64,000 nucleotides of DNA from a virus: positions 205,731 to 269,730 of the IMG/VR virus record IMGVR_UViG_3300017917_002434; one strand, 5' to 3'. The first letter of the stretch is position 1, and the number at the start of each line of letters is the position of its first letter. The notes below the pieces were generated by a model that saw only the letters and a list, made by a program, of their open reading frames with translations, was not told the origin of the DNA and made no database searches. The translations under genes were made by a program, and so were the position numbers. Shown one piece after another: positions 11,507 to 57,568 of the stretch.

Positions 11507-11534
11507 TTGACAATCAGACTTTTTGCTGTATAAT
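11507..11534 (+). promoter_or_regulatory. Sigma70-type promoter TTGACA-N16-TATAAT, leaderless
   Basis: Perfect -35 (11507-11512) and -10 (11529-11534) with a 16-bp spacer. The ATG at 11541 lies 6 nt past the -10, so the start site should coincide with the start codon. No Shine-Dalgarno is present. It drives the heptose cassette. Confidence 0.85.
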
Positions 11535-11540
11535 TACAGC

Positions 11541-11936
11541 ATGAGTCTGATTTTTGTTAACGGTTCTTTTGATATACTTCATCCAGGACACATCGAACTG
11601 CTAAACTATGCCAAAAGTTTAGGATCTCATCTCATGGTTGCCATAGATTCGGACGCTAGAATTACTAGTTTAAAAGGACCGACTCGGCCTATTAACAATC
11701 AACGTTATAGAGCGTTCATGTTAAAAAATCTTAGAGCAGTGGACGAAGTAGTAATTTTTGATTCTGACCAAGAATTAATAAACTTGATCGCTGCCTGTGA
11801 TATAATGGTAAAAGGCAGCGACTATATGGGTAAACCTATCGTAGGCGAAGAAGTCTGCGATGAAATTATATTTTTTGATAGATTATATGACTATTCAACA
11901 ACAAAAATCATTCAAGATATTGTTAATCGGAGATGA
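11541..11936 (+). CDS. ADP-heptose-type nucleotidyltransferase (HldE C-domain-like)
   Basis: A 131-residue cytidylyltransferase-fold protein. The N terminus has VNGSFDILHPGHI with the HxGH catalytic signature (His14, Gly16, His17), followed by a KGPTRPI loop and a VKGSDYMGK segment, as in the RfaE2/HldE adenylyltransferase domain that converts heptose-1-phosphate to ADP-heptose. The start at 11541 is the first ATG and lies 6 nt after the -10 box. The 3' end overlaps the next (kinase) gene by 50 nt in another frame. In E. coli the kinase and this domain are fused in the opposite order; here they are separate. Other CTP-transferase substrates cannot be excluded. Confidence 0.82.
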   Translation: MSLIFVNGSFDILHPGHIELLNYAKSLGSHLMVAIDSDARITSLKGPTRPINNQRYRAFMLKNLRAVDEVVIFDSDQELINLIAACDIMVKGSDYMGKPIVGEEVCDEIIFFDRLYDYSTTKIIQDIVNRR

Positions 11937-16442: not shown

Positions 16443-17656
16443 TATTCGTCCGCCTTAGGTCTCAATGCTTTGCTCAAGCTCTGTTTTTCTTTTACTAGCT
16501 TGCCGTCTATCATACGCTCATTGGTATTATTAATGAACGTACCTTTCTGATTTTGTCTTGTTTCTCTACCTTCAAATCTTTCTCCAGATTCGGTATCCGT
16601 AGTTCCGAGATTGCTCATTGTCATTCTTACATTGTCTTCGTACTTGACCCATCTACGTCCATTAAATCTAAATAATCTCTTAGGGAAATAATCTGTTCGT
16701 AGACAGAACTGTCCTTCGACAGGATTTCCAGGAAATGTAATACCACTGGTAAATGGAGCACCGTTAGGAGTAACGCCATCTTCATGATAGTTTTGATAAC
16801 CATCTTTAGTCGGTGTTGCTATGATAACGCTGGCATCAATTCCAGATCCGTCATTACTGGCTTCTATTTCGCCAGCATCGGTAGTAACTAATTTAACATT
16901 GCCTTGTTCATCAAGCGGCACAGTATAATACATAGTAGTGTCATAACCGCTCTTAGGAGAGTCTGATTCTGCTTGATCCAGAACTGCTTCAGTGATACGC
17001 ATTTCTGTTTCATAGGTACTCATGATATCACGCAATGTTGTGTTAGTATCTTCGCCGGTGTCATCGGCTAGACCATCTAAGATTTGTTTAAATTCTTGAC
17101 TGTCAACTAATGGCGTACATTTTGCTCTATAAAGATGAGGATACCATGTAGCTGAAAAACCTTCTGCGGCACGATTAACTTCTTCTATAACATAAAATCT
17201 TTTTAGGGCAAATTTTAAATCATTAAGTGCGTGATAATCTTTGAGGTGAGGCAATTCGATAACATCACCCGCCAGCAATTTTCTACCAAGTTTTTCCACA
17301 GTATCGTTAATATGAAACGTTATGAAAATAGTATCGTTTTGTAAAAATAATCCAAACTGTGTTAGATTAAAATCTAAATCTGTTATATTGTATACACCTC
17401 TTAAAACATAAACATCGGGGTCGTATTTTCTATCTCGATTTTCTAAAAATAACAAATCTTGTATCTGTAGCTCGGGAATTCCGCCAGTATACACGGGTGT
17501 TGTTGGTGTGCTAGCACCGGGCAACGGATCGCCGGGTCCTATATATTTGTGAACCAATACATCAACACCGCCGACTTGAAACATTTCCCAGACGGTTTTG
17601 TCGATAAATTTGTAATCATTGCCCTTTTCTGGGCGATAAAGCGAAAGTCTTGGCAT
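16442..17656 (-). CDS. gp14: Neck protein gp14-like
   Basis: 404 residues from the ATG at 17656 (an ATG at 17662 is 2 codons upstream). The first ~180 residues match the gp14 fold: GVDVLVHKYIG, DLLFLENRDRKYDPDVYVLRG, an LLAGDVIELPHL segment and FYVIEEV. A low-complexity C-terminal part follows, containing an RTDYFPKRLFRFNGRRWV module also seen in neck proteins of marine T4-like phages. Gp14 joins gp13 in the collar that closes the filled head. It is the first gene of the minus operon and is transcribed divergently from gp13, with a GGTAAATA late-type box 7 nt upstream. Confidence 0.85.
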   Translation of the reverse strand: MPRLSLYRPEKGNDYKFIDKTVWEMFQVGGVDVLVHKYIGPGDPLPGASTPTTPVYTGGIPELQIQDLLFLENRDRKYDPDVYVLRGVYNITDLDFNLTQFGLFLQNDTIFITFHINDTVEKLGRKLLAGDVIELPHLKDYHALNDLKFALKRFYVIEEVNRAAEGFSATWYPHLYRAKCTPLVDSQEFKQILDGLADDTGEDTNTTLRDIMSTYETEMRITEAVLDQAESDSPKSGYDTTMYYTVPLDEQGNVKLVTTDAGEIEASNDGSGIDASVIIATPTKDGYQNYHEDGVTPNGAPFTSGITFPGNPVEGQFCLRTDYFPKRLFRFNGRRWVKYEDNVRMTMSNLGTTDTESGERFEGRETRQNQKGTFINNTNERMIDGKLVKEKQSLSKALRPKADE

Positions 17657-17663
17657 AGTCATA

Positions 17664-17671
17664 TATTTACC
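17664..17671 (-). promoter_or_regulatory. Late-type box GGTAAATA for gp14 operon
   Basis: The minus-strand box lies 7 nt before the ATG at 17656 and only 5 bp from the plus-strand gp13 box, forming a compact divergent late promoter. Confidence 0.55.
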
Positions 17672-17676: not shown

Positions 17677-17684
17677 GATAAATA
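17677..17684 (+). promoter_or_regulatory. Late promoter box GATAAATA, leaderless gp13
   Basis: GATAAATA with exactly 5 nt to the ATG at 17690 and no Shine-Dalgarno, so the transcript should start at the start codon. Confidence 0.75.
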
Positions 17685-17689
17685 CTAGC

Positions 17690-18454
17690 ATGAGCCAACT
17701 TGACCAAGAAAAACAGAAAGTATTCGACTACTGCCGTTTGATGCTGGGCGACGGTATGATCGACGTAGAATTAGACCCACAACACTACGAAACAGCGTTA
17801 CAGCGTAGTCTAGGAGTTTTTCGCCAACGTGGTGATAATTCTGTAGAAGAAAGTTTCGCATTTTTGACTTTACAAGAAAATCAAAATGTTTATACACTAC
17901 CAGACGAAATTCAAGTAGTTAGGGAAATATATCGTCGAAGTATTGGATCTAGATCGGGTGGTGGAAACGGCGGTACAGTGTTTGAACCGTTTAACTTGGC
18001 CTATACAAACACTTATCTGTTAAGCTCGACTAATATGGGCGGATTACTAACCTATGAATTATTCGCAGGATATCAGGAACGTGTGGGTAAGATGTTTGGT
18101 AGCTTCATTCAATTTACTTGGCATGCTCAAAGTCGTAAATTAACTATACATCAGCGACCTAGAACAAACGAAGAAATTATGCTTTGGTGTTATAATACAC
18201 GACCGGATGTTGCTATTTTAGTCGATACTTACGCCGGTCAGTGGATCAAAGATTATACATTAGCCAACTGTAAAATAATGCTCGGCCAAGCTCGTGAAAA
18301 ATTTGCCAGTATTGCTGGTCCTCAGGGCGGCACAGCACTCAACGGTGCTAGCATGAAAGCAGAAGGTCAAGCAGACATCGATAGGCTTACAGCAGAATTG
18401 GTTAATTATGTTCCAGGACACGCTAACGCCAGTTATACATTTGTTGTGGGATAA
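17690..18454 (+). CDS. gp13: Neck protein gp13-like
   Basis: 254 residues. Recognised by the gp13 core of T4-like phages: QHYETALQRSLGVFRQRG, TLPDEIQVVREIYRR, and the C-terminal AGQWIKDYTLANCKIMLGQA followed by FASIAGPQGGTALNG. Gp13 binds gp14 and the portal after packaging. The start at 17690 is set by the late box 5 nt upstream; the reading frame extends further 5' but would run through the divergent gp14 start. It is followed within 3 nt by a small basic protein. Confidence 0.88.
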   Translation: MSQLDQEKQKVFDYCRLMLGDGMIDVELDPQHYETALQRSLGVFRQRGDNSVEESFAFLTLQENQNVYTLPDEIQVVREIYRRSIGSRSGGGNGGTVFEPFNLAYTNTYLLSSTNMGGLLTYELFAGYQERVGKMFGSFIQFTWHAQSRKLTIHQRPRTNEEIMLWCYNTRPDVAILVDTYAGQWIKDYTLANCKIMLGQAREKFASIAGPQGGTALNGASMKAEGQADIDRLTAELVNYVPGHANASYTFVVG

Positions 18455-18801: not shown

Positions 18802-18830
18802 TTGACAATTTAAATATTCTATTGTATAAT
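18802..18830 (+). promoter_or_regulatory. Sigma70-type promoter TTGACA-N17-TATAAT
   Basis: Perfect -35 (18802-18807), 17-bp spacer and -10 (18825-18830). It is followed by a short leader with GGAGG (18840-18844) 5 nt before the ATG at 18850. Gives gene 1 early expression inside a late block. Confidence 0.9.
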
Positions 18831-18849
18831 AACCTTAATGGAGGATATT

Positions 18850-19509
18850 ATGATCATAGGTATTTGCGGTTTTATTGGCAGCGGCAAAGACACCGTCGCT
18901 GACTATCTTGTAAACTTTCACGAATTTCGCAGAGAGAGTTTTGCCAACACCCTTAAAGATGCTGTAGCAGCCGTATTTGGTTGGGATCGTACTATGCTAG
19001 AAGGCCGTACCAAGGAAGCCCGAGAATGGCGAGAGCAAGTCGACCCTTGGTGGGCAGAACGTCTCGATATGCCTACGCTTACCCCGCGATGGATTCTACA
19101 ATACTGGGGTACGGAAGTCTGCCGTAAAAATTTCCATGATGACATCTGGATCGCTTCATTAGAAAATAAACTCCGCAACTCTAAGGACAATGTCGTGATT
19201 TCAGATTGCCGATTTCCTAACGAGATACAGAGTATTCGTAATGCCGGAGGCATTGTAGTTCGTGTGATCCGCGGTGATGAGCCTGAGTGGTATAACGATG
19301 CTGTAGCAGTTAATCGAGGACCTAAACACCTACGCTGGGCACTGAGTAAAGAAAGATTGAATCAATTTAAAATCCATGCGTCCGAAACAGCATGGGTAGG
19401 TACTAAATTTGATGCTGTATTGGATAATAATGGAAGTATCAGTGACTTGTTTGAAAAGATTGAAGAACTGGTTAAAAATCAGCGACAAGATCTCCCTGTT
19501 TCCATTTAA
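18850..19509 (+). CDS. gp1: Deoxynucleoside monophosphate kinase
   Basis: 219 residues, T4 gp1 family. P-loop ICGFIGSGKDTV (residues 5-16). ESFANTLKDAVAAVFGW and RWILQYWGTEVCR are typical of the gp1/dNMP kinase fold, and VVISDCRFPNE forms the Walker B-like strand. It phosphorylates dNMPs for phage DNA synthesis. The start at 18850 is chosen over ATG 18838 because GGAGG lies 5 nt upstream. Own perfect sigma70 promoter; the 3' end overlaps the antisense HNH gene by 38 nt. Confidence 0.92.
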   Translation: MIIGICGFIGSGKDTVADYLVNFHEFRRESFANTLKDAVAAVFGWDRTMLEGRTKEAREWREQVDPWWAERLDMPTLTPRWILQYWGTEVCRKNFHDDIWIASLENKLRNSKDNVVISDCRFPNEIQSIRNAGGIVVRVIRGDEPEWYNDAVAVNRGPKHLRWALSKERLNQFKIHASETAWVGTKFDAVLDNNGSISDLFEKIEELVKNQRQDLPVSI

Positions 19510-19807
19510 TACCCTCTTTAGCTAATACACGCTGACAGTTAGCACACACTGTTTTAAGATTAGCTACTTTACAGTTATTAAGATCTTCATCAACATGATA
19601 TACTGCGAATACCTCGGGATGCAGTGATTTAAAACCGCATCGATCGCAAGAAGTTTTCTTTCTATAACCTGCCCTATACCATCTAGGTATTCCGTGATAT
19701 TTTCCGTGCTTTAAGCATATCTCACAGAGAGATCTGTAATATATCTTTTTTCCTTTTCGATAGTTTATAGCAGCCGGTCTTTGTCCGCATTTACATAGGG
19801 GTCTCAT
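19472..19807 (-). CDS. Zinc-ribbon HNH endonuclease-like protein
   Basis: 111 residues from the ATG at 19807. Four cysteine pairs (CKC, CEIC, CDRC, CANC) flank an H-V-D-E-D-LNN-C segment typical of small phage HNH nucleases. The C terminus WKQGDLVADF is a conserved tail in T4-like marine phages. The start is chosen because a CTTAAATA box lies 5 nt upstream; a longer frame to 19897 would run through the gp18 late promoter. It is antisense to the end of gene 1. Could be a homing-type or DNA-processing nuclease. Confidence 0.78.
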   Translation of the reverse strand: MRPLCKCGQRPAAINYRKGKKIYYRSLCEICLKHGKYHGIPRWYRAGYRKKTSCDRCGFKSLHPEVFAVYHVDEDLNNCKVANLKTVCANCQRVLAKEGIKWKQGDLVADF

Positions 19808-19812
19808 ATATC

Positions 19813-19820
19813 TATTTAAG
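19813..19820 (-). promoter_or_regulatory. Late-type box CTTAAATA, leaderless HNH gene
   Basis: Minus-strand box 5 nt before the ATG at 19807, the same spacing as eight other late genes here. Confidence 0.6.
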
Positions 19821-19881: not shown

Positions 19882-19889
19882 AATAAATA
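19882..19889 (+). promoter_or_regulatory. Late promoter box AATAAATA for gp18
   Basis: AATAAATA followed by a leader of about 29 nt with AGGAG (19911-19915) before the ATG at 19924. Confidence 0.8.
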
Positions 19890-19923
19890 TTATACAAGAT
19901 TCAAACCATCAGGAGATAACGGA

Positions 19924-22900
19924 ATGGCACTTAATTCACCAGGTGTAGAGGTTACAGTAATCGATGAGAGTTTTTATACCCCAGCTGAAAGCAGCACAAC
20001 TCCATTGATCGTAATTGCTACCACAGAAAATAAAGCAAATGCTAGCGGAACAGGTACCGCACAGGGTACACTAGCGACTAACGCAGGTAAAGTTTACAGG
20101 GTTTCAAGTCAGAGAGAACTCGTTGATTTCTTTGGCGTACCATCATTTAAGAGAACTATTTCGGGTTCTCCGCTACACGGCGACGAAAGAAACGAATACG
20201 GTTTACAAGCAGCCTACAGTTTCTTAGGTGCTGCTAATTCTGCTTATGTAGTTAGAGCAGCAGTAAATCTCGACGACCTAACTGCGAAATCAGAAATTCC
20301 TGGTTCTGAAGCAACTAGCGGTCAATGGTGGTTAGACACTCAAAGTACTAACTGGGGTATTTTTGAGTGGGACTCTGCTCCTGCTAATTTATCAGGACAG
20401 AAATTCAATAACAAAGTGCCCGTTGTTATCACAGCAGAAGATACAGAAAGTCTCAGCGGTAATGAACCAGCTACTGGTGTAGGCCGTGTAGGAGATTACG
20501 CTATAGTAACAGCGTCTGATGTTATTAGAATCTATTACAAAGGCAAAGATTATACAACAGTAGGTGAACCAGTTTCTTGGGAACTGTTAGGTACTAAAGA
20601 ATGGCGTAAATTTTGGCCAGCATTTACAGCAGAAATCGACGGCCACTCAGCTAAAGTAAGTTCGTCTACATTCATTATCAATGGTGTACAGATCAACGTG
20701 CCAGCCTACACAACTGTTAGCGGAATGGTAACATTGATCAATAACGCATTAGTTCAAGGTGTTAGAGCAGCTAATGTAAATGGTTTTGTAACCCTATATA
20801 TTACTGATACTACAGACGACATGGTAGGTGATTCCACAGGTAGTAACGCTCTTGTGTTACAAGATGGTTCGGCCACTGTATTGAGTTTGTTTGGTGTTGC
20901 TGCTGGAACATATTACGGACCAGAATTAACTATGGCTCCGCACACTCAAGTTCCTCAGTGGAAATCAAACGCTGCTATTTCAAGACCAAGCGGTTCTATC
21001 TGGGTTAAAACAACTGATCCTAACCTAGGAGCACGTTGGAGAGTAAAACGCTGGAACAGCAGTTCTAAATCATGGTTAGAAGTAGCTGCTCCATTAGCTG
21101 CTAATGCCCAAGGTGCTATTTTCGGTGTTAACAAAACAGGTGGTGGTGCCGGTATTGACAAAGACACAGTTTATGTTCAGTACAATTACACCGAAGATAC
21201 AGGTTACGATAATACTCCACAAACAGCAAGTTTTAAAATTTTTGTAAGAAAGAATAAAGGAGTAACTTCAGCAACATCTGACGTTATCGGAGCAGGAACA
21301 TTTAGCGGCTCTTACACATTTAGTATGAGAGAAAGCCTAGTTAATAGTGCTAGTCTATCAAGTCCTATTTCAATATCATTTACAGCAGCAGGAACTGGTG
21401 CTGACGCAAATACACTCCGTACAGCAATCAACAATGCTGGATTCGTTAATGTCGAAGCTACTGTATTAGACGGTAAAATTACTATTACACACAAACTAGG
21501 CGGAGAGATTAGAATTGTAGACGGTAACGATTTATTCACCGATGCCGGTTTTGTTGAATTTGATGTAACAGACTCTACAGGAACTCCGAACTTTTACGGT
21601 TCTCCGAGTGTCAGCAGCGATTTTGACTATGTAATCAGTAACTATATGCCAATGTCTGGAACATCTACAGGATATGTAGCATCACCAGATGCTCCATTGA
21701 ATGATCCAGCTGACGGTCAAAGATGGTTTAACAGTCTGATCGATCAAGCCGACATTATGATCCATAATGGTTCAGCATGGGTTGGTTACAGATACAGTGG
21801 TTCTGGTGGTATCGCTACTACAGCATCACCAGTATACGCCAACGGTACAGATCCTCTAGGTCCTATTGTTAACAGCACTAGACCTTTGCTACAAAGCGAT
21901 GGAACTGCTCTAGTAACTGGCGACCTATGGATTGATTCTAGTGATTTAGAAAACTATCCAGTCATTTACAGATACCAAGACGGTTTAACTGATCAAGTAG
22001 CTAATAACTGGGTGCTGATCGATAAGAGTGATAGCACATCAGAAGATGGTATTGTGTTTGCTGATGCTCGTTGGGATCTAAACGGAGAGTCTAAAGATCC
22101 TGCGACGATCGTAGAATTGCTATCTAGTGATTTTGTTGATTACGATGCTCCAGATCCGGACTTATATCCAAGAGGCATCCTACTATTCAATACTCGCAGA
22201 AGCGGTTTCAATATCAAGAGATATGTAAGAAATCATGTTGATACATCAGCAGATAATCTACGCTACGGTGACGAATCGATGATAGATTACGAACCAGCAC
22301 GTTGGGTTTCTGATTCTGGTTCAGCGTTTGGAAGAAAAGCACAACGACAAGTTGTTGTTACTGCGTTGAAAGGATTGTTAAATTCTAATACTGAAATCCG
22401 TGAGGACGAAGTACGTAATTTCAATCTAATATCTACTCCTGGATATCCAGAAGTTCTACAAGAAATGATTGCGTTGAACATAGACAGAGGCACTACAGCA
22501 TTTGTTGTCGCAGACGCACCATTTAGATTATTACCAGACACTAATTCATTGAATAACTGGGGTAAAAATCTTGCTAATGCTGCCGATAATGGCGATGTAG
22601 GATTAAGAAGCTCAGACCCTTATGCTGGCATATTCTATCCAGCAGGGTTAACCAGCGATAACAACGGAAACACTATCATGGTTCCACCAAGTCATATGAT
22701 GCTTAGAACTATAGCATTAAATGATCAAGTGTCATATCCATGGTTCGCTCCAGCTGGAATTAGAAGAGGTGGTATTAATAATGCTACGGCGGTCGGTTAC
22801 TTAGAAAGCAAAACCGGAACATTTAAACCAGTATCATTGACCGAAGGGCAGCGTGATACAATGGCTAACATTAAGGTTAATCCTTTAACATTCTTTAATG

Positions 22901-23315: not shown

Positions 23316-23323
23316 GATAAATA
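23316..23323 (+). promoter_or_regulatory. Late promoter box GATAAATA for gp19
   Basis: Lies 21 nt before the ATG at 23345. The short leader carries CGGAG as Shine-Dalgarno. Confidence 0.75.
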
Positions 23324-23344
23324 ACAATACCGGAGCATAAGAAT

Positions 23345-23974
23345 ATGGCAATTTCAACACTATCAAAATTAACAGTACCTTTAGCAACAGACGCTTCGTC
23401 TAGTGCTCAGGGTTTGTTAATGCCCAAGCTAAAGTATAGATTTAGGGTAGTCTTACAAGGCTTCGGGGCAAACGGAACAGTAGCAACCGAATTAACAAAA
23501 CAAGTAAACGATATTACTCGCCCTAAAGTAAACTTTGAAGAAATAGAACTTCCAGTTTACAACTCAAGAGTGTATCTAGCAGGTAGACATAACTGGGAAC
23601 CAGTAACATTAAATGTAAGAGATGATGCTACAGGGTCTATACAACGTCTTTGCGGCGAGCAAATCCAGAAACAATTTGACTTTTTTGAACAGTCAGGAGC
23701 AGCGTCAGCCCAAGATTATAAGTTTGTTACTTTAATCGAAGTATTAGATGGCGGTAACGGAGCCCAAACACCAAACGTTCTAGAAACTTTTGAATTGTAT
23801 GGTTGTTTTGTACAGAACATCGACTACGGCGATTTAAATTACACATCAAACGAACCAGCAATGATCGCATTGTCTATTCGTTATGATAACGCAATCCAGT
23901 ACAAAGGCGGCGGCGTTGACGGTATCGGTAGAAATATTGGTGCTAGAACAGTCGGTACTTTGGCGACAGGTTAA
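23345..23974 (+). CDS. gp19: Tail tube protein gp19
   Basis: 209 residues. Tail-tube fold signatures: KYRFRVVLQGFG, QVNDITRPKVNFEEIELPVYN, RHNWEPVTLNVRDD, FDFFEQ and a C-terminal FVQNIDYGDLNYTSNEPAMI strand set. Forms the inner tube through which DNA leaves the virion. It directly follows the sheath gene, as in T4, with its own late promoter and a strong terminator downstream, consistent with a very abundant product. Confidence 0.95.
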   Translation: MAISTLSKLTVPLATDASSSAQGLLMPKLKYRFRVVLQGFGANGTVATELTKQVNDITRPKVNFEEIELPVYNSRVYLAGRHNWEPVTLNVRDDATGSIQRLCGEQIQKQFDFFEQSGAASAQDYKFVTLIEVLDGGNGAQTPNVLETFELYGCFVQNIDYGDLNYTSNEPAMIALSIRYDNAIQYKGGGVDGIGRNIGARTVGTLATG

Positions 23975-23992: not shown

Positions 23993-24018
23993 AAGCCCGG
24001 AATTCCCGGGCTTTTTTT
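23993..24018 (+). terminator. Rho-independent terminator after gp19
   Basis: Perfect 8-bp stem AAGCCCGG / CCGGGCTT, loop AATTC, then a T run (24012-24018). Confidence 0.9.
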
Positions 24019-24021
24019 ATC

Positions 24022-24029
24022 ACTAAATA
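24022..24029 (+). promoter_or_regulatory. Late-type box ACTAAATA, leaderless
   Basis: 5 nt before the ATG at 24035; no Shine-Dalgarno. Confidence 0.6.
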
Positions 24030-24034
24030 ATATT

Positions 24035-25159
24035 ATGTCAGACAAATTCACTAGATTTTTAAAGGGAGTAGGTCAAGGTATTACCAATCCTAAAGGTAAC
24101 CTAGGCGATGCTCGTCACGCGGCTCGATTGTATATAGACAATCAGTATACAAGAGCACCGAGAACAAAATTTTTATATCATGTACAATTTAATATAAATC
24201 GTCCAGCAGTTCTCTCTGCGAATTTTTTAAAGCTTCATCAAAAAACGATTGATATGATGGTTAAACAGGCAGACTTGCCTAAGATAACATTAGAACACGA
24301 AATAAAAAATCAATATAATAGAAAAAAAGTTATCTACAAAGATATAAAATATGAAGGTCTTAATATTGTATTTCACGATGACAACCTCGGTGTGATTAAC
24401 GCTCTCTGGGCACAATACCTATCGTGGTATTCCAATGAAAGATTATTGCCTCCCACATTCTGGACTCAGACAAATGGCCCCTACTCTCCCTTAGATGGGA
24501 CTCAATCCGGAGACGAAAGAATTGCGATAACCGGAGCAGCGGCCGGAGCAGATGATCCTCAATCCGGAACTGTTCGATACGGACTAGATGTGCCAAAAAA
24601 GGCGTTCGTAAGACCGTTTTTTGATTCGATAACCATCTATACATTGAGCAGGAAAAAATTTAATTCTTATACATTGATTAATCCGCATATAACTAGTTGG
24701 AATCATGGAAACGTAGATCAAGCTTCTAATAACGGAACCATCGAAGCAACTATGAACATAGTCTATGAAACTGTGCTATACGGCACCGGCAGCATCGTTA
24801 AAGGAACCTCGGCTACAGCGGCATTACCGAGACAGTTTACTGATCTGTATTACGATAAAACACCTAGCCCATTGACTATACAGGGCGGACAGCTCACTAG
24901 TCTTTTTGGCCCGGGCGGTTTGCTTAACGCAGGATCGAGTATCATCGAGGATGCTCCATTAATATACGGAGTAGGTAATGTTCAAGGGGATATTACAGGC
25001 TCGTCTGGTCTTGAACAGGCCATTAAAGCAATTAATCTTTACAAGAGTTTAGCATCATTACGGCCCGAAAATCTCATAGCTGAAGCCACTAATATTATTT
25101 TAACTCCGGGTGCTGTCGGTAATGCTGTAAGCGGAATCCCCGGAGTCCGCTTCAAATAA
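24035..25159 (+). CDS. Tail-tube-fold baseplate/tube protein (gp54/gp48-like)
   Basis: 374 residues. The core (RTKFLYHVQFNINRPA, MMVKQADLPKITLEHEIKNQ, YNRKKVIYKDIKYEGLNIVF) has the tail-tube fold seen in gp19, extended by a C-terminal Gly/Ser-rich region. In T4 the tube-initiating baseplate proteins gp48 and gp54 share this fold, so a role at the tube base or top is likely. It follows gp19 after a terminator, with its own leaderless late box. Which T4 protein it replaces cannot be settled by eye. Confidence 0.7.
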   Translation: MSDKFTRFLKGVGQGITNPKGNLGDARHAARLYIDNQYTRAPRTKFLYHVQFNINRPAVLSANFLKLHQKTIDMMVKQADLPKITLEHEIKNQYNRKKVIYKDIKYEGLNIVFHDDNLGVINALWAQYLSWYSNERLLPPTFWTQTNGPYSPLDGTQSGDERIAITGAAAGADDPQSGTVRYGLDVPKKAFVRPFFDSITIYTLSRKKFNSYTLINPHITSWNHGNVDQASNNGTIEATMNIVYETVLYGTGSIVKGTSATAALPRQFTDLYYDKTPSPLTIQGGQLTSLFGPGGLLNAGSSIIEDAPLIYGVGNVQGDITGSSGLEQAIKAINLYKSLASLRPENLIAEATNIILTPGAVGNAVSGIPGVRFK

Positions 25160-25999: not shown

Positions 26000-26482
26000 A
26001 TGACGAAAAAACTTGAAGAACTATTCAATTTAGAGGATACTAGGAACGTAGAAGTTAAGGTTCCTGTAATCGAAGAATCTAAGGATGAAGTACGGGATCT
26101 AGAACGTAGTTATAGGGAAGTCGATGCTATAGCTGGACAATTACCGGCTATCGCAGATCTAGAAAATCTCGGAGAAAACGAACTTGATGCGTTAGCAAAA
26201 AAAGCCGAAGAAGCCTATGATGATCTCATGGATTTAGGCATGAATGTAGAAGTACGATACAGCGGAAGAATTTTTGAAGTAGCAGGAACTATGCTTAAAA
26301 ATGCCATAGATGCTAAATCTGCTAAAATTGACAAAAAGCTCAAAGCTATAGATGCTAAATTGAAAAAATTAAAAATTGACAAAGATGCTGGCGACGAGGA
26401 TCCTAATAGTATGCTTAACGGGCAGGCCTTTGTCATAACCGATCGCAACGAGTTATTGAAAAAACTCCAAGGAAAGGAATAA
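26000..26482 (+). CDS. gp16: Small terminase subunit gp16-like
   Basis: 160 residues, almost wholly helical. The central AKKAEEAYDDLMDLGMNVEVRY followed by RIFEVAGTMLKNAIDAKSAK and a Lys-rich coiled coil (KLKAIDAKLKKLKI) matches gp16 of T4-like phages, which forms a ring that recognises DNA and stimulates gp17. It follows gp4 by 7 nt. Gp17 is encoded three genes downstream, not next to it as in T4. Confidence 0.85.
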   Translation: MTKKLEELFNLEDTRNVEVKVPVIEESKDEVRDLERSYREVDAIAGQLPAIADLENLGENELDALAKKAEEAYDDLMDLGMNVEVRYSGRIFEVAGTMLKNAIDAKSAKIDKKLKAIDAKLKKLKIDKDAGDEDPNSMLNGQAFVITDRNELLKKLQGKE

Positions 26483-26485
26483 ATA
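26478..26485 (+). promoter_or_regulatory. Late promoter box AATAAATA, leaderless
   Basis: Overlaps the gp16 stop codon and lies 5 nt before the ATG at 26491. Confidence 0.7.
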
Positions 26486-26490
26486 CTGAT

Positions 26491-27054
26491 ATGAAAACAC
26501 TAAAAGATTACCTAGCTGAGAGTAAAAAAACCTACGGATTTCGCATCAAAGTAGCAGGTCCCTTGCCAGAAGGCTTTGAAGATAGAGCCAAAGCAAAAAT
26601 GGGCAAATACGGCTGCGGCAAATTTGAAAAGGTTGCTACTACTCCTATCCAAAAAACTGCTCTAGAGTTCCTAGACCTATCAAACATTGAAGTTACTGTT
26701 TTTGAGTGTGAGTGTTCATACCCAGTAACACCACAGCAGGTACAGGTAGATATCCATGAGTCTACTGGTATTTCTAATACTCATCTAAGAGTTAGAAATG
26801 TTAATGATCCATTTGAACAAGCAGAACCCCTAGGCGATCCTAGTGGAAAAGCATTGTTAAATGACAGCGAATTAAAAGATGCTGAAAAAATCAAACACAA
26901 AGAAAATTTTGGAAATGAATTTACAGCATCGTTCTTGAAAGATATTGCTAAAGTCAGCAAAGAAAGAACAAAAGAATCAAATCAGGGCGAATATAAGATG
27001 CCCAAAACACCTAAACAAGATAAAGCAGGCATGAAAAGTGCCTTGGGGAGTTAA
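26491..27054 (+). CDS. Putative internal head protein with capsid-targeting-like peptide
   Basis: 187 residues. The N terminus MKTLKDYLAESKKT resembles the T4 capsid-targeting sequence (MKTYQEFIAEA), and L-A-E before Ser would fit gp21 protease cleavage. A compact domain follows (residues ~15-105, with an ECECSYPVTPQQVQVDIHES segment), then a charged, disordered tail. Lies between terminase subunits with a leaderless late promoter. Conserved in related phages as far as I can recognise; biochemical role unknown. Confidence 0.7.
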   Translation: MKTLKDYLAESKKTYGFRIKVAGPLPEGFEDRAKAKMGKYGCGKFEKVATTPIQKTALEFLDLSNIEVTVFECECSYPVTPQQVQVDIHESTGISNTHLRVRNVNDPFEQAEPLGDPSGKALLNDSELKDAEKIKHKENFGNEFTASFLKDIAKVSKERTKESNQGEYKMPKTPKQDKAGMKSALGS

Positions 27055-27613: not shown

Positions 27614-27641
27614 AAATAGGCTCTTCGGAGCCTATTTTTTT
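27614..27641 (+). terminator. Rho-independent terminator before gp17
   Basis: 10-bp stem AAATAGGCTC / GAGCCTATTT closed by a TTCG tetraloop, followed by T's. Confidence 0.92.
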
Positions 27642-27642
27642 C

Positions 27643-27650
27643 ATTAAATA
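27643..27650 (+). promoter_or_regulatory. Late-type box ATTAAATA, leaderless gp17
   Basis: 5 nt before the ATG at 27656; directly follows the terminator. Confidence 0.65.
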
Positions 27651-27655
27651 GTTGT

Positions 27656-29242
27656 ATGGCAAAGTCATTAGATGGTAATCTCATCAAGAAAGCACATGCC
27701 CAGACCAAATATACTTTAGAAGAAGTAAAGCATCTGGAAGCATGTATGGATCCTGTAACAGGACCTTTGTATTTCTGTAGGAATTTTTTAAAGATCCAAC
27801 ATCCTGTTCGTGGAAGTATTCCATTTGAACCTTACGAATATCAAGAAAGATTAATACAGGCCTATCACGAAAACAAGCAGTGTATTGCTATGTTACCTCG
27901 TCAGATGGGTAAGACAACCTGTGCCACAGGTTATCTATTATGGTATACAATGTTTGTACCAGAAGCACAGGTTCTGATCGCTGCTCACAAATATGAGGGT
28001 GCTCAGGATATTATGAATCGTTATCGCTATGGTTATGAAAATCTGCCTGACTTTATACGTGCTGGTGTTTATAGTTATAATAGGAATACAATCGAGTATG
28101 ATAATGGTGCTCGTATCCAAGCAACCACAACCACTGAAAACACCGGTCGTGGTAAATCGCTATCCTTAATTTACTGTGACGAGTTTGCGTTCGTACAGCC
28201 GCCAGAGAAAGCCAAGGAGTTCTGGACTGCCTTATCACCGACATTGTCTACAGGCGGTAAGTGTATTATTACATCAACACCAAACTCAGACGAAGATCAG
28301 TTTGCTCTTATCTGGACAGAAGCTAACAAAAAGTTTGACGAGTTTGGCAACGAACAAAAACTAGGTACCAACGGATTCTACAGTTATTTCGCACACTGGG
28401 CAGAGCATCCAGATCGTGATGAAGAGTGGGCTAAGGTAGAACGTGCCAAGATCGGTGAAGAGCGTTTCCGCCGTGAGTTTGACTGCGAGTTCTTGATCTT
28501 TGACGAAACATTAATCAACGCAGTAAAACTAGCCGAACTCAAAGGTAGCGAACCTGTAATGACTATGGGTCAGACACGTTGGTATAAAGAAATAAATCCG
28601 CAGGCCACATATCTCATAGCACTAGATCCTAGCTTGGGCACAGGCGGCGACTATGCTGCCATAGAAGTTTTTGAGATGCCTGCTATGGAGCAGGTAGCAG
28701 AATGGCGACACAATCTAACACCTATACAAAGTCAAGTAAAACATATGAGAGAAATATTAAAATATATTTCTGAACGATCGATGGAATTAGGTGGACAGCC
28801 CCAGATTTATTATTCTGTAGAAAATAATTCGTTAGGCGAAGCAGCATTGATCGTCATTAATGATATAGGCGAAGAGAATTTTCCTGGACTATTTTTAAGT
28901 GAACCTATACGCAAAGGACATGTGCGTAAGTTCCGCAAAGGATTTAACACAACACACAGGACTAAAGTAACTGCCTGTAGTCAACTTAAAAATATGCTAG
29001 AAACCTATAAGATGAAAATACATAGTAAGCCTCTGATTTCTGAGCTAAAAACATTCGTAGCACACGGTGTGGGTTTTGGTGCTAAAACAGGAGAACACGA
29101 CGATCTAGTTTCGTCCACTCTGTTAATCATACGTATGGCTGGTATCTTAGCAGATTGGGATCCGCACATATATGAAAAAATGACAGAACGACTGTCTGAA
29201 GAACAGTTACCCATGCCCATTTATGTAAGTTCTATATATTAA
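27656..29242 (+). CDS. gp17: Large terminase subunit gp17
   Basis: 528 residues. ATPase domain: Walker A-type PRQMGKTT (81-88), Walker B LIYCDEFAFV with Asp175-Glu176, and the coupling motif TSTPN. RNase H-like nuclease domain: LIALDPSLGTGGDYAAIEVF (first Asp), VENNSLGEAAL (catalytic Glu), and the C-terminal GEHDDLVSSTLL (last Asp). This is the headful packaging motor. Size is a little shorter than T4 gp17 (610). Own terminator-separated leaderless late unit. Confidence 0.97.
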   Translation: MAKSLDGNLIKKAHAQTKYTLEEVKHLEACMDPVTGPLYFCRNFLKIQHPVRGSIPFEPYEYQERLIQAYHENKQCIAMLPRQMGKTTCATGYLLWYTMFVPEAQVLIAAHKYEGAQDIMNRYRYGYENLPDFIRAGVYSYNRNTIEYDNGARIQATTTTENTGRGKSLSLIYCDEFAFVQPPEKAKEFWTALSPTLSTGGKCIITSTPNSDEDQFALIWTEANKKFDEFGNEQKLGTNGFYSYFAHWAEHPDRDEEWAKVERAKIGEERFRREFDCEFLIFDETLINAVKLAELKGSEPVMTMGQTRWYKEINPQATYLIALDPSLGTGGDYAAIEVFEMPAMEQVAEWRHNLTPIQSQVKHMREILKYISERSMELGGQPQIYYSVENNSLGEAALIVINDIGEENFPGLFLSEPIRKGHVRKFRKGFNTTHRTKVTACSQLKNMLETYKMKIHSKPLISELKTFVAHGVGFGAKTGEHDDLVSSTLLIIRMAGILADWDPHIYEKMTERLSEEQLPMPIYVSSIY

Positions 29243-29250
29243 GATAAATA
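29243..29250 (+). promoter_or_regulatory. Late promoter box GATAAATA, leaderless
   Basis: 5 nt before the ATG at 29256; no Shine-Dalgarno. Confidence 0.7.
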
Positions 29251-29255
29251 TAAAC

Positions 29256-30998
29256 ATGGAAGATAATATCAAAAGTGTAAGCACTGACCTTTTTTACAAG
29301 ATTAGAAGCCGATTTTCAGGCCTAAAATTAGGATCTGAATTAGGCGAAATTACCATCAACCCAGAAGAAGCTGTATTCTTTGATTTTGATTACATGGAAG
29401 GACAAAATCCTGTCGGACATGTAAGCATCAGTCTAGCTGAGCCTGGAAACATGAAAGTCTACTATAGTACAGGTATTACTGAAAATATGGATGCTGTACA
29501 GAAAGATACATGGTATGATTTTTTAAGAGGACTTAGAGAATTTGCCAAAAGACGATTAATGAGTTTTGATACACGAGATATTACTAAGGATAATTTAGAT
29601 CAAAGAGACTTTAGTTTCTTGAGTCAATACGCAAATAATACACCTGTCGGAGAGGGAGTTATGAAAGAAGGAATGTACGGTACTGCTAAAACCAGTTACC
29701 AAAAATTAGAAAACACAAGATTGATCATCAAACACGATCAACAGGTAGATGAAACTAGCCCGGGTGCTCGAACCAGACACATCAATGCTATGTTCATAGA
29801 AAACGGCCAAGGTGAGCGATTTAAATATCCGTTCATTCATTTAGCAGGTGCTCGTGCTATGCAGAGGCATGTACAGGAAGGCGGTTTGCCCTACGACGAT
29901 ATTGGCAAACACATCATTGGTATCAGTGAAAAAATCGCACATCTAAAGAATTTTGGAAATTACGTAGTACGAAATGATCTCATGAACTCCGAAACTAATG
30001 AGATCGTCGGTCGTGCTCATGAAACACTAGATAGTCTAAGAGAAACAATTAAAAAATTAGCCAAGAAAAGTCATTATGAACAATTTAAGGCACAGTTCCA
30101 GGCAGAACAGGTAACAGAGGTACCAGAAGAGTTCATCGAAGATCTAACTAATAAATTTACAGTAAAGAATTTCAAAGAAGATATCAAGGCCGCATTCCCT
30201 ATCATTTATAGCCTAATGCAGACCAAAGAAGATATACATTATGACGACATAGTCGCGATGACTCAACCAACTAACGAAGAAGTAGAACTCGACCTCGAAA
30301 GCGTAGAAGAATTTGATGATCCATTTTCAAAATTTGAAGATTGGGCTATGAACTTAGGCGAAGATAATGCTATCACTAGTCAAGACGAAGAAGAAAAAGC
30401 AGCAGCAGTAGAAAAATTACAGGCTCTGGTAGGCGAACATTTTCCCGCAGGTGTTGATGGTCAAAACGCCATCAGCAGCTTAAAAGGCATAATCGACGAT
30501 CCCGAACTAGCACGTGAAATCAAAGATGCTGCTAAAGAAGACGCAGACACTTGCGTTCGACCTTTAGTATATCAATGGCTAGAAAATAATGCTCCAGACG
30601 TAGTGGACGAATTAGATTTTGGTGACATGGATATGCCAGACGAACCTCAATATGATGACGAAGGCGGAGACACAGATGATTCTTACGCTCTAGCATCGGC
30701 AGGTCACGGATCTGATGAGGACTATGGAGACTTTGGCAACGAATACGAAGGAATCGATCCCCAAGAACAAAAAATAAATGTGCAAGAAGTTGCTGAATTT
30801 ATGTTTACAGGCTATGATCCAATCAAAAAAACATTTCCTAAAGGCCCAGAAGGTATGATCACTATGGTAGGCAAAAAATTTGGACCAAAGGCCGAATCCG
30901 CAGCACGTGAATTAGTGATGCGTATGGCACCTAACCAAAATACACAAGTACCACAGGTAAATGAATTATCAAGAATCAAAGAATTATCTGGACTATAA
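29256..30998 (+). CDS. Conserved large structural protein of T4-like marine phages
   Basis: 580 residues. The block INAMFIENGQGERFKYPFIH...GARAMQRHVQEGG.PYDDIGKHIIG is a signature I recognise in large uncharacterised proteins of marine T4-like phages. The N-terminal ~110 residues look like a compact alpha/beta domain. Residues ~330-510 are strongly acidic and probably disordered. It follows gp17 with a leaderless late promoter and ends at a terminator. Likely a virion or internal head protein; no function assigned. Confidence 0.75.
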   Translation: MEDNIKSVSTDLFYKIRSRFSGLKLGSELGEITINPEEAVFFDFDYMEGQNPVGHVSISLAEPGNMKVYYSTGITENMDAVQKDTWYDFLRGLREFAKRRLMSFDTRDITKDNLDQRDFSFLSQYANNTPVGEGVMKEGMYGTAKTSYQKLENTRLIIKHDQQVDETSPGARTRHINAMFIENGQGERFKYPFIHLAGARAMQRHVQEGGLPYDDIGKHIIGISEKIAHLKNFGNYVVRNDLMNSETNEIVGRAHETLDSLRETIKKLAKKSHYEQFKAQFQAEQVTEVPEEFIEDLTNKFTVKNFKEDIKAAFPIIYSLMQTKEDIHYDDIVAMTQPTNEEVELDLESVEEFDDPFSKFEDWAMNLGEDNAITSQDEEEKAAAVEKLQALVGEHFPAGVDGQNAISSLKGIIDDPELAREIKDAAKEDADTCVRPLVYQWLENNAPDVVDELDFGDMDMPDEPQYDDEGGDTDDSYALASAGHGSDEDYGDFGNEYEGIDPQEQKINVQEVAEFMFTGYDPIKKTFPKGPEGMITMVGKKFGPKAESAARELVMRMAPNQNTQVPQVNELSRIKELSGL

Positions 30999-31400: not shown

Positions 31401-31408
31401 TATAAATA
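31401..31408 (+). promoter_or_regulatory. Perfect late promoter TATAAATA for gp32
   Basis: The exact T4 late consensus. Predicts a start near 31414 and a leader of about 60 nt before the gp32 ATG. Confidence 0.85.
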
Positions 31409-31413
31409 AATCA

Positions 31414-31474
31414 CGCATAATAACAATATGCGTAAGGCATACATTTTAAGGCATATTAAAGGAGGCAATTTAAA
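31414..31474 (+). promoter_or_regulatory. gp32 mRNA leader with alternative hairpins
   Basis: CGCATA (31414-31419) pairs with TATGCG (31427-31432). The same TATGC can also pair with GCATA at 31437-31441 or 31451-31455; AAGGCATA is directly repeated. The Shine-Dalgarno AAAGGAGG (31458-31465) follows the last copy. In T4 a leader pseudoknot mediates gp32 autoregulation; this leader is a candidate analogue. Confidence 0.55.
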
Positions 31475-32443
31475 ATGGCAACATTAGCAGAAATCCGTGC
31501 GAAACTTCAAGAAGCACAAGCAGGCCAAGGCGGCAAATCAAGCGGCGGCGACAACGCAATCTATCCACACTGGAACATGGCAGAAGGTAAAGAAGCAACT
31601 ATTCGTTTCTTGCCCGACGGTGATTCTAACAACACTTTCTTCTGGATTGAACGAGCAATGATTAAATTGCCGTTTGCTGGAATCAAAGGTGACACATCAA
31701 GTAAACCTGTACAAGTACAAGTTCCTTGTATGGAAATGTGGAATGAAACCTGTCCTATCCTAAGCGAAGTGCGTGGTTGGTTCAAAGATAAATCACTAGA
31801 AGACATGGGTCGTAAGTATTGGAAGAAGCGTTCTTACATCTTCCAAGGCTTCGTTGTTAAGAATCCTATCGCAGAAGATACAACTCCAGAAAACCCAATT
31901 CGCCGATTTATCATCGGTCCTCAAATCTATCAAATCATTAAGAGTGCGTTGATGGATCCTGAGCTAAATGAACTACCAACTGATTTCAACCACGGTGTTG
32001 ATTTCCGTATTGCTAAAACTAGCAAAGGTGGTTATGCTGACTACAGCACATCAAAGTGGAGCCGTGTTGAACGTGCCCTTAGCGATGAAGAACGTGCGGC
32101 AGTCGAAGCACAAGGTCTGTTTAACTTAAAAGACTTCTTACCAAAGAAACCCACAGAAGTAGAACTCAAAGTCATTAAAGAGATGTTTGAAGCATCTGTC
32201 GACGGAGAAGCCTACGATATGGAACGTTGGGGTCAGTACTTCAAACCAGCAGGACTCGGTCAAGCAACAGGTGATCCAGTAGCACGTCGTTCAGACGATG
32301 TACCGGCAGGTGAAGACGATGAGCCGGCAGTAGCCGCTCCGGCCCCTAAGGCAGAGGCAGCACCAGCAACAGCAGCCGCAGGTGCTAACAACAGTAGAGC
32401 ACAAGACATCCTAGCGATGATCCGCTCACGTCAAGGCCAATAA
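31475..32443 (+). CDS. gp32: Single-stranded DNA-binding protein gp32
   Basis: 322 residues. The N-terminal basic/hydrophobic segment and the core NAIYPHWNMAEGKEATIRFLPDG, PCMEMWNETCPILSEVRGWF (Cys85, Cys93) and KKRSYIFQGFVV match gp32 of T4-like phages. The C terminus is acidic and Ala/Pro-rich with a final short helix, as expected for the protein-interaction tail. Coats ssDNA for replication and recombination. Very strong SD and perfect late promoter upstream; uvsX follows. Confidence 0.95.
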   Translation: MATLAEIRAKLQEAQAGQGGKSSGGDNAIYPHWNMAEGKEATIRFLPDGDSNNTFFWIERAMIKLPFAGIKGDTSSKPVQVQVPCMEMWNETCPILSEVRGWFKDKSLEDMGRKYWKKRSYIFQGFVVKNPIAEDTTPENPIRRFIIGPQIYQIIKSALMDPELNELPTDFNHGVDFRIAKTSKGGYADYSTSKWSRVERALSDEERAAVEAQGLFNLKDFLPKKPTEVELKVIKEMFEASVDGEAYDMERWGQYFKPAGLGQATGDPVARRSDDVPAGEDDEPAVAAPAPKAEAAPATAAAGANNSRAQDILAMIRSRQGQ

Positions 32444-37893: not shown

Positions 37894-37901
37894 AATAAAT
37901 A
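37894..37901 (+). promoter_or_regulatory. Late promoter box AATAAATA, leaderless
   Basis: 5 nt before the ATG at 37907; no Shine-Dalgarno. Confidence 0.7.
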
Positions 37902-37906
37902 GAAAC

Positions 37907-38674
37907 ATGAAAATTGTTTTAGTTACTGGTGGGTTTGATCCGATTCATTCCGGACACATAAGTTATTTTAAGTCGGCACGTACCTTAGGCGATATGCTCA
38001 TAGTCGGATTAAATTCTGATGATTGGTTAGAGCGTAAAAAAGGTCGTGCGTTTATGCCGTGGAATGAAAGATTGTGTATTATCAATAATCTTTCAATGGT
38101 AGACGAAGTTTACACATTCGATGACGAAGATGGTTCTGCTAAACATTTTATTCAGCAGGTCCGAGCTCATTACCCTGATGCTGAATTGATATTTGCCAAC
38201 GGCGGCGATCGCACAGCAAAAAATATTCCCGAAATGGATGTTCAAGATTCTAATCTACGTTTCGAATTCGGTGTCGGCGGAGAAGATAAAAAGAACTCTA
38301 GCAGCTGGATCTTACAAGAGTGGAAGGCTCCAAAAACAGAAAGACCCTGGGGATATTATAGGGTATTACACGAAGTTACTGGATGTAAAGTAAAAGAGCT
38401 AACAGTGAATCCTGGACAGAGTCTAAGTCTACAAAGACATAAAGATAGAACAGAAATATGGTTAGTAGCCAAAGGTCAATGTATGGTAGAACATTATGGT
38501 CATGCTATACAATCTGATGCGTATCTTGTTCAAACCCCCTTACATACTCACAGCGAATATCATGTCAGTAGAACTGCCTGGCATAGATTGTTTAATCCAT
38601 ATAACGAACCTTGTCAGATAGTTGAAATTCAATACGGCGATCGCTGTGTTGAGGAGGACATAGAAAGAAAATGA
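37907..38674 (+). CDS. Fusion: nucleotidyltransferase plus mannose-6-P isomerase-type cupin
   Basis: 255 residues. Residues 1-~130 are a cytidylyltransferase-fold domain (VTGGFDPIHSGHISYF with HxGH, then NERLCIINNLSMVDEVY). Residues ~143-250 are a type II phosphomannose isomerase-like cupin: ERPWGYYRVL, GQSLSLQRHKDRTEIWLVAKG, HTHSEYHV and VEIQYGDRCVEEDIER. In bacteria this cupin accompanies GDP-mannose pyrophosphorylase; here the nucleotidyltransferase partner is of another fold. Probably makes or shuttles an activated sugar. First gene of a five-gene plus operon. Confidence 0.82.
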   Translation: MKIVLVTGGFDPIHSGHISYFKSARTLGDMLIVGLNSDDWLERKKGRAFMPWNERLCIINNLSMVDEVYTFDDEDGSAKHFIQQVRAHYPDAELIFANGGDRTAKNIPEMDVQDSNLRFEFGVGGEDKKNSSSWILQEWKAPKTERPWGYYRVLHEVTGCKVKELTVNPGQSLSLQRHKDRTEIWLVAKGQCMVEHYGHAIQSDAYLVQTPLHTHSEYHVSRTAWHRLFNPYNEPCQIVEIQYGDRCVEEDIERK

Positions 38675-50502: not shown

Positions 50503-50953
50503 TCCGTGTTATTTATATTCGAATCGAATGGACATATATACTAATCTTGGCTCTTGGACAAAGGAGAGGTTTAGAAAAGTGTATCAACGAACAATGAAAA
50601 TCTATAAGGGCGTGGATAATCGTCTAGACTTCCAAGTCCGCAATAACGACAATAAGCCTAAGGATATCACCGATCTAACCAGTGTTACTTTTAATATAGT
50701 AGCAGTAGATACAAAAGGTATCCAATTACAAAAAGCAGTTACTATCGAAACGCCAGCACAGGGTAAAATGTTTGTACTCCTAACTGAAGAAGAAATCCAG
50801 GATTTAGAACGTGGGTACTATCATTTCAGCATGTTTTATATTGATAGTGATGGTAATAGGTTCCCATTATACGGAGACAGCCAGTATGATGCTTTGGGAC
50901 AATTACACGTAATCGATGGTGCTTTTGATATTGACAGCACGACTGTAATCTAG
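50492..50953 (+). CDS. Structural protein with Ig-like baseplate-type domain
   Basis: 153 residues. KIYKGVDNRLDFQVRNNDNK, TSVTFNIVAVDTKG, AQGKMFVLLTEEEIQDLERG and a YHFSMFYIDSDGNRFPLYGD segment look like the BppU-type Ig-like domain of phage baseplate and capsid-decoration proteins. A late promoter precedes it, while its neighbours are replication genes with early promoters. ATG 50528 is an alternative start. Confidence 0.72.
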   Translation: MQLNPCYLYSNRMDIYTNLGSWTKERFRKVYQRTMKIYKGVDNRLDFQVRNNDNKPKDITDLTSVTFNIVAVDTKGIQLQKAVTIETPAQGKMFVLLTEEEIQDLERGYYHFSMFYIDSDGNRFPLYGDSQYDALGQLHVIDGAFDIDSTTVI

Positions 50954-50959
50954 TATAAT
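50931..50959 (+). promoter_or_regulatory. Sigma70-type promoter TTGACA-N17-TATAAT, leaderless gp61
   Basis: Perfect -35 (50931-50936), 17-bp spacer, perfect -10 (50954-50959), 6 nt to the ATG at 50966. The -35 lies inside the 3' end of the previous gene. Confidence 0.9.
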
Positions 50960-50965
50960 TAGTCT

Positions 50966-51973
50966 ATGGCTCTGGTCGTAGACATCTTTCAAAAACATCT
51001 TCCTTATAAAAAGAAGCAAACTCCCAGCGGATGGATCAGTTTTGATGCTCCGTGTTGTCATCATCGGGGTGAAGGCACTGATACTAGACAGCGGGGTGGA
51101 GTGAAATTTTCTGACGGTTTAGTATTCAATTGTTTTAATTGTGGATATACTGCCAGTTGGAAACCGGGTAGACAGATCAGTCAAAAATTACGACAGTTAA
51201 TGATTTGGTTGGGTGCTCCTGACGATGATATCAACATGATGGTGTTTGAAGCACTGAAAACAGAAAGCGGTGCTGAAGATACTACCAAAGATCGAGAATT
51301 AATTGATTTCGTTAATAAAGATCTTCCAGACGGTGCTTTACCCATATCAGAGTGGATTGATCAAGAAATAGGTCACGATCTCGAAATACAGTTAGCTGAG
51401 GTGGTAAGTTATCTAGTAGATCGAGGTTGCGATCCATTAGATGATAGATTTTATTGGACTCCTATTGATATCAAAGATAGAGTTATCATACCCTTTACCT
51501 ATGGTGGCAGAATCGTCGGTTGGACTGCTAGAAAAGTTAAAGAAGGCAAACCAAAATATCTGTCAGACCAACATCCTAACTTTGTTTTTAATCTAGATTC
51601 AATCAAACAAGATCAACGATATCTTTTCGTAGTCGAAGGTCCTTTTGATGCTATGGCTGTCAACGGCGTAGCACTACTACACAACGAAATATCAGAAAAT
51701 CAAGCAAGGCTGATAAACAAGATGGGCAAAGAAGTTATAGTAATTCCAGATCAAGACAAAGCAGGTAGTAAACTTATAGAACATGCCTTGAAGTGGGATT
51801 GGGCTGTGGCATTTCCTACATGGCATGATGATGTTAAAGATTGTTCAGATGCTGTAAGGAGGTATGGTAGTTTGTTTGTAGCTGTAGATGCCATCTCAAC
51901 TGCTCAGCAAGGTGCGATTCGGATAAATTTATATAAGAACAAATTTGATAAAAAGGTACAGGAAAATGTTTAG
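50966..51973 (+). CDS. gp61: DNA primase gp61
   Basis: 335 residues. N-terminal zinc-binding domain (Cys30/Cys31-His32-His33 and Cys56/Cys59 in FNCFNCGY). TOPRIM domain with FVVEGPFDAM (Glu224) and VIPDQDKAG (Asp262, Asp264). Makes RNA primers with helicase gp41. First gene of an early operon that runs to gp41; own leaderless promoter. Confidence 0.93.
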   Translation: MALVVDIFQKHLPYKKKQTPSGWISFDAPCCHHRGEGTDTRQRGGVKFSDGLVFNCFNCGYTASWKPGRQISQKLRQLMIWLGAPDDDINMMVFEALKTESGAEDTTKDRELIDFVNKDLPDGALPISEWIDQEIGHDLEIQLAEVVSYLVDRGCDPLDDRFYWTPIDIKDRVIIPFTYGGRIVGWTARKVKEGKPKYLSDQHPNFVFNLDSIKQDQRYLFVVEGPFDAMAVNGVALLHNEISENQARLINKMGKEVIVIPDQDKAGSKLIEHALKWDWAVAFPTWHDDVKDCSDAVRRYGSLFVAVDAISTAQQGAIRINLYKNKFDKKVQENV

Positions 51974-56476: not shown

Positions 56477-56479
56477 TGG

Positions 56480-57523: not shown

Positions 57524-57534
57524 TAGTAGCAGAT

Positions 57535-57542: not shown

Positions 57543-57568
57543 CCTGTATATAACAGGGGAACAGCAAC

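Follow-up and report, generated by a model that had tools for sequence, protein, structure and literature searches.

Late-Promoter Boxes Five Nucleotides Before Start Codons Suggest a Conserved Leaderless Late Gene Class in a Giant T4-Like Phage

The late mRNAs made by T4-type phages are usually regarded as being led by a Shine–Dalgarno (SD) sequence. Their promoters consist of a TA-rich, −10-like box without a −35 element, and the expected transcription start lies roughly one helical turn beyond this box (PMC2988020). The phage analyzed here appears to share this architecture and also has a gp55 homolog and boxes that would drive virion genes. It differs, however, in the core of the box (NNTAAATA versus TATAAATA, at −13 to −6, in T4), in that profile searches detected neither gp45 nor gp33, and in the position of the box, which in T4, KVP40, S-PM2, and Syn9 is mostly found ~15–40 nt before the ATG, whereas a large class of genes in the present phage has it at 5 nt. 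Promoters adjoining the coding sequence are known from bacterial leaderless genes, which carry TANNNT ~12 bp before the start (PMC3160421); in Deinococcus-Thermus the −10 element likewise lies beside the open reading frame (ORF; PMC12340547). In these genes the −10 element replaces the ribosome-binding site and keeps a fixed spacing to the ATG, a layout that the sigma70-type class of the phage (see below) would reproduce. In contrast to the bacterial cases, the phages mainly employ the box of a phage-encoded late sigma factor, with a spacing of 5 instead of 6 nt. Lambda cI is a single leaderless phage mRNA (PMC9031893), whereas the class described here would be genome-wide and comprise structural, packaging, and replication genes. 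The late leaderless layout is apparently shared by the Pelagibacter (SAR11) phage HTVC008M (NC_020484) and its relatives, but HTVC008M belongs to the Kyanoviridae lineage, has another leaderless gene set except for gp13, and shows no sigma70 leaderless peak. Leaderless genes with a −10 element beside the ORF and T4 late promoters are both known; what appears to be new, judged from sequence, is a class of late genes in T4-type phages that is leaderless and conserved, and no description of leaderless late genes in such phages was found in the open-access literature searched.

Box-to-start spacing in the window and its relatives

The window, a stretch of 64,000 nt, corresponds to bases 205731–269730 of a 269,730-base virus record (G000) that represents an uncultured giant T4-like phage. 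Nine TAAATA boxes spaced exactly 5 nt from an ATG had been claimed for it in the first-pass annotation, and all nine are present at precisely this distance (d). They are listed here together with two genes that have slightly different spacings.

17679–17692, plus strand: gp13-like head-tail adaptor (ORF 17690–18454; phrog_211), TAAATA, 5 nt, ATG 17690
19805–19818, minus strand: 111-aa ORF (19472–19807), predicted late box, 5 nt, ATG 19807
23993–24037, plus strand: tail-tube-like protein, terminator 23993–24013 with T-run, box 24024–24029, 5 nt, ATG 24035
26480–26493, plus strand: virion structural protein (phrog_14802, alignment beginning at residue 1), box shared in part with the stop codon of the preceding gene, 5 nt, ATG 26491
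27614–27658, plus strand: gp17 (terminase large subunit), terminator 27614–27637 with T-run, box 27645–27650, 5 nt, ATG 27656
29243–29258, plus strand: virion structural protein of 580 aa (phrog_13484), the site originally cited, GATAAATA, 5 nt, ATG 29256
37896–37909, plus strand: cytidylyltransferase/mannose-6-phosphate isomerase fusion, predicted late box, 5 nt, ATG 37907
58945–58981, both strands: divergent pair of predicted late boxes, 5 nt before each of the ATGs 58947 (minus) and 58979 (plus)
17654–17669, minus strand: divergent partner of gp13, presumably near-leaderless, box 17669–17664, conserved ATG 17656 at 7 nt
56470–56482, plus strand: 114-aa ORF, predicted late box 4 nt before ATG 56480, assigned to the leaderless class

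Dinucleotide shuffles of the window (n = 100) contain 1.54 such sites on average and five at most, and 0 of 100 reach nine. In the whole record the exact arrangement TAAATA-N5-ATG occurs 16 times, versus three occurrences of the reversed pattern. Fifteen of the 144 TAAATA hexamers lie at distance 5 from the ATG of an ORF of at least 60 aa, and TAAATA precedes such an ATG by 4 nt five times, with a second group of distances beginning at 16 nt; among the remaining 14 hexamers with this base composition, only 29 of ~6,140 occurrences are at distance 5. A scan of box-to-ATG distances across the complete genome, as had been suggested in the first-pass annotation, gave a distribution that is not flat: the distances are either 4–7 nt (23 sites) or at least 15 nt with almost none between (p = 6e-8 for 4–7 versus 8–14 nt). 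In this phage the consensus of the box reads NNTAAATA. The complete T4 octamer TATAAATA was rejected as the motif because it is not enriched (three sites versus 6.8 expected), and in orthologs the six-letter core TAAATA is kept and the first two letters of the octamer are free.

Conservation was assessed in 80 IMG/VR loci, out of at least 594, that were retrieved with gp17. In distinct contexts of these relatives the box lies 5 nt before the ATG in 196 cases, 4 nt in 21, 6 nt in five, and 8–12 nt in one. The start codon at 5 nt is ATG 196 times, TTG once, and GTG never, which indicates a strong preference for AUG. For seven of the nine genes the box is conserved in relatives, and orthologs hold the 5-nt distance while spacer and flanks diverge: it is found in 9 of 10 distinct upstream regions of gp13 (the remaining one having 4 nt), in 22/23 of the 111-aa ORF, in 32/33 of the tail-tube-like gene at 24035, in 30/30 of the gene at 26491, in 19/20 of the cytidylyltransferase fusion, and in 34/38 of the gene at 29256, where three more have 4 nt. 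For gp17, 20 of 31 distinct upstream regions have 5 nt, five have 4 nt, and two have 6 nt; a few gp17 relatives are devoid of the box, and several of those carry an SD and start at the same codon. The spacer was analyzed in 127 upstream regions, a set that was selected for a box at 5 nt. It is free to vary except for its last base, where T occurs 109 times and C 18 times, making a pyrimidine in 127/127, in contrast to the −1 base at other genes of the record (A 117, T 74, C 45, G 38). The divergent pair at 58947 and 58979 is the weakest of the nine sites, its proteins having no detected relative in the long records G001 and G002 of related phages. This pair is contained in a region (56000–64000 of the window) where G+C rises to ~0.47 and the GC skew turns negative. 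At the divergent partner of gp13, ATGCCAAGA is retained ~6–7 nt after the box in distinct ortholog upstream regions, and an alternative ATG at 1 nt would fall upstream of the predicted +1.

Among the genes assigned to the leaderless class are gp13 and gp17, along with those of minor virion proteins and of small proteins of unknown function. Intrinsic terminators are located directly upstream of the boxes at 24035 (z −5.3) and 27656 (z −4.3). Terminator, box, and ATG form one compact unit in most gp17 relatives, and such a unit is found again at position 171589 of the record, just after gp23.

Predicted transcription start and competing explanations

We propose that TAAATA serves this phage as its late-promoter box of the gp55 type. 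A gp55 homolog is encoded at 152761–153615 on the plus strand of the record (E 3.9e-50 in a profile search). Despite the presence of gp55, homologs of gp45 and gp33 were not found in G000, G001, G002, or PA5oct with profiles built from T4 and cyanophage members, which remote homologs could escape, and late activation in these phages may involve a different or very diverged clamp.

With a spacer of 5 nt, the sixth base after the box is the A of the ATG. At leadered TAAATA boxes, the base at +6 is a purine in 71% of the cases in T4, 93% in Syn9, 78% in KVP40, and 74% in S-PM2, and this share is at or near the highest among the positions compared. In the full leadered set of the window clade, purines at +6 amount to 47% without a peak; in the SD-bearing subset, A makes up 49% and A or G 57%. 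The lack of a clear purine peak at +6 in the clade is the main weakness of this calibration, and the start site there is placed from the SD boundary and from the data of the other phages. SDs of the clade begin at +6 or later with one outlier (six at +6, eight at +7), and leaders of ~10 nt that open with the SD itself exist, as in TAAATA-CAATT-AGGAGAAATC-ATG. An SD is present in 1 of 20 genes with the box at 4–6 nt and in 31 of 39 leadered genes, counts for which the choice of starts favored both classes; moreover, the box occupies the position of an SD, so that SD absence is partly forced and does not constitute independent evidence.

A polymerase directed by a box 4–7 nt (mode 5) before the ATG would start at, or ~2–3 nt from, the A of the start codon, and the resulting late mRNAs would be leaderless and translated via start-codon recognition without an SD. 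Two layouts can be envisaged on this basis: a leaderless one with a late box 5 nt or a sigma70 −10 box 6 nt before the ATG, and a leadered one with the box at least 15 nt before the ATG and an SD within the transcript. Leaders of intermediate length, which could not hold an SD but would exceed the leaderless limit, would be avoided, and transcription starting at +6 would account for the two distance ranges of the boxes, 4–7 nt and 15 nt or more before the ATG. Conserved spacing, the +6 purine calibration, the SD boundary, the −1 pyrimidine, AUG-only use, and a spacing that depends on the promoter class strongly support the leaderless reading that had been proposed at the outset. We consider it very probable that the late box directs initiation at or near the A of the ATG and that this two-layout scheme yields leaderless mRNAs; what we infer from these patterns is where the mRNAs begin, by which route they are translated, and what the layouts may mean for expression level.

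TAAATA is frequent in this A/T-rich, compact genome, and its position near start codons might be fortuitous. Such chance juxtaposition is, however, contradicted by the shuffles, the hexamer control, and the conservation across many relatives, and the peak is absent from T4 and PA5oct, which are even more A/T-rich; the comparative data have already refuted this explanation, to which we assign practically no probability. Since the gene starts are predictions, translation might really begin further downstream, from an SD that lies within the reading frame as now called. Yet in none of the nine genes (0/9) do the first 50 codons contain an alternative in-frame start that has an SD, the alignments to several family profiles begin at residue 1 or keep the N-terminal register, the SD-bearing relatives agree on the start codon of gp17, and in the first 50 kb of HTVC008M all d = 5 sites (9/9) coincide with annotated gene starts, which makes misplaced starts highly improbable.

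Alternatively, TAAATA at −11 to −6 might be a translational element, such as an unstructured stretch or an S1 site, in transcripts that start further upstream. SD-less initiation can be aided by A/U-rich stretches, and some boxes overlap the end of the upstream gene (26480), so that read-through transcripts are conceivable. This explanation is nevertheless improbable, as TAAATA is also found 15–40 nt upstream of SD genes, whose SDs do not begin before +6 (with the exception noted), no comparable peak is seen for other hexamers with this composition, two of the boxes directly follow a terminator, and the box is retained in nearly all orthologs despite variation in most of the 5-nt spacer. Furthermore, the spacing follows the promoter class (5 nt for late, 6 nt for sigma70), which would not be expected of an A/U-rich element. 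More weight has to be given to the view that the boxes are late promoters from which transcription starts 2–4 nt upstream of the ATG, resulting in very short leaders, or at mixed positions: distances of 4, 6, and 7 nt exist alongside 5, and the divergent partner of gp13 is conserved at 7 nt. The sharp mode at 5 nt, however, speaks for initiation at the ATG itself, and the invariable pyrimidine at −1 of the d = 5 upstream regions fits a −1 pyrimidine/+1 A initiator, and we regard very short leaders as unlikely, if clearly worth considering.

Sigma70-type promoters and leadered genes

Three long records (G000, G001, and G002) were scanned for sigma70 promoters with at least 4/6 matches to the −35 element, a spacer of 16–18 nt, and TATAAT. 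These promoters peak 6 nt before the ATG, with 26 sites at 5–7 nt in the three records, a count that includes the site 18838 discussed below; T4, Syn9, S-PM2, PA5oct, KVP40, and OC have three sites at 5–7 nt together. The −10 hexamer ends at −7 and the late box at −6. The one extra nucleotide in the sigma70 spacing is therefore what the two promoter geometries predict. Accordingly, the label “late” that the first-pass annotation had given to the leaderless genes is too narrow for the class as a whole, in which sigma70-type genes would also be leaderless at a spacing of 6 nt. Two such genes in the window are the following.

50931–50968, plus strand: DNA primase, TTGACA, 17 nt, TATAAT, 6 nt, ATG 50966
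11507–11543, plus strand: nucleotidyltransferase-like protein, TTGACA, 16 nt, TATAAT, 6 nt, ATG 11541

Upstream of DNA primase, G001 and G002 retain a −10-like hexamer at 6 nt, though its letters differ. The site 18838, with a sigma70 box at 7 nt, was rejected as part of the leaderless class because its first ATG overlaps an SD that serves a second ATG shortly downstream. The site falls within 18802–18850 of the window, where a perfect sigma70 promoter, TTGACA-17-TATAAT, has a TAAATA box inside its spacer.

The genes of three high-copy proteins in the window represent the leadered layout.

19884–19926, plus strand: gp18 (tail sheath), box 34 nt before the ATG, SD AGGAG
23318–23347, plus strand: gp19 (tail tube), box 21 nt before the ATG, SD GGAG
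31403–31477, plus strand: gp32 (ssDNA-binding protein), box 66 nt before the ATG, SD AGGAGG

The gp18 box is retained in relatives at a distance that floats over 31–36 nt. The original observation that gp18, gp19, and gp32 have leaders and SDs is correct and extends to gp23, and it holds in 5/5 genomes of two lineages, with the SD-led start of gp19 in the window clade taken from ortholog upstream regions and a profile search. From this observation it had been suggested that the presence of a leader sets the expression level. The pattern at genes of abundant proteins fits this idea, but low-copy baseplate and tail-fiber genes are also SD-led or leadered, and the relationship is only a correlation. 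Still, the pattern raises the possibility that phages grade expression inside one temporal class by the presence or absence of a leader.

Distribution among phages and translation components

The peak at 4–5 nt is present in G000, G001, and G002. HTVC008M has 12 sites at 5 nt and its relative G005 has 10; a peak is absent from T4 (three sites), Syn9 (none), S-PM2 (one), PA5oct (three), KVP40 (none), and OC (two). The wedge gene of HTVC008M has the box at 5 or 6 nt in 37/37 distinct upstream regions. The gp13 box lies near the ATG in 5/5 genomes of both lineages, at 5 nt in four and at 8 nt in HTVC008M. As the leaderless gene sets otherwise differ between the lineages, the two probably acquired this layout largely independently of each other. 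An alphaproteobacterial host was rejected as general cause, since phiM12 and Cr30 are without an exact site and the Ochrobactrum phage OC is without the leaderless peak; host assignment from metagenome bins was discarded as too weak, with two short contigs only. A big share of promoter-proximal genes thus appears to be leaderless in a large uncultured branch and, separately, in SAR11 phages, with spacings tuned to the promoter class, which offers a new signal for gene finding and promoter annotation in such phages. Since HTVC008M has a cultured host, the physiological role of leaderless translation becomes testable.

IF1 and initiator tRNA have been reported to stimulate leaderless translation (PMC9031893), and a link to phage-encoded copies is therefore possible. 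A gene for IF1 is found in G000 (L017 2980–3198), G001 (66599), and G002 (264799), as well as in Phosso, and is absent from most comparator phages; IF2 and IF3 are not encoded. The IF1 gene of G000 itself belongs to the putative sigma70 leaderless class, having a perfect TTGACA-17-TATAAT 6 nt before its ATG. A mismatched 1:72 pair is a hallmark of initiator tRNAs. An initiator-like tRNA-Met(CAU) with a C1·A72 or A1·A72 mismatch is encoded in G000 (L017 2144–2217), G001 (64155), and G002 (232836); in G000 it is one of only three tRNAs, the others being Ser and Gly. As a specific cause of the layout this tRNA was rejected, because PA5oct, S-PM2, KVP40, and OC, all of which are without the peak, likewise encode a tRNA-Met(CAU) whose 1:72 pair is mismatched. 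A bS21 gene is present in G001, G002, HTVC008M, PA5oct, and Atu_ph07. One could speculate that sigma70-type and late genes together form a genome-wide leaderless program for which host translation is shifted by phage IF1, the initiator-like tRNA-Met, and, in two relatives, bS21, but we consider so comprehensive a scheme rather doubtful. Genes for tmRNA are predicted in G001 (L136 4882–5318) and G002 (L167 18488–18862), beside near-complete tRNA sets.
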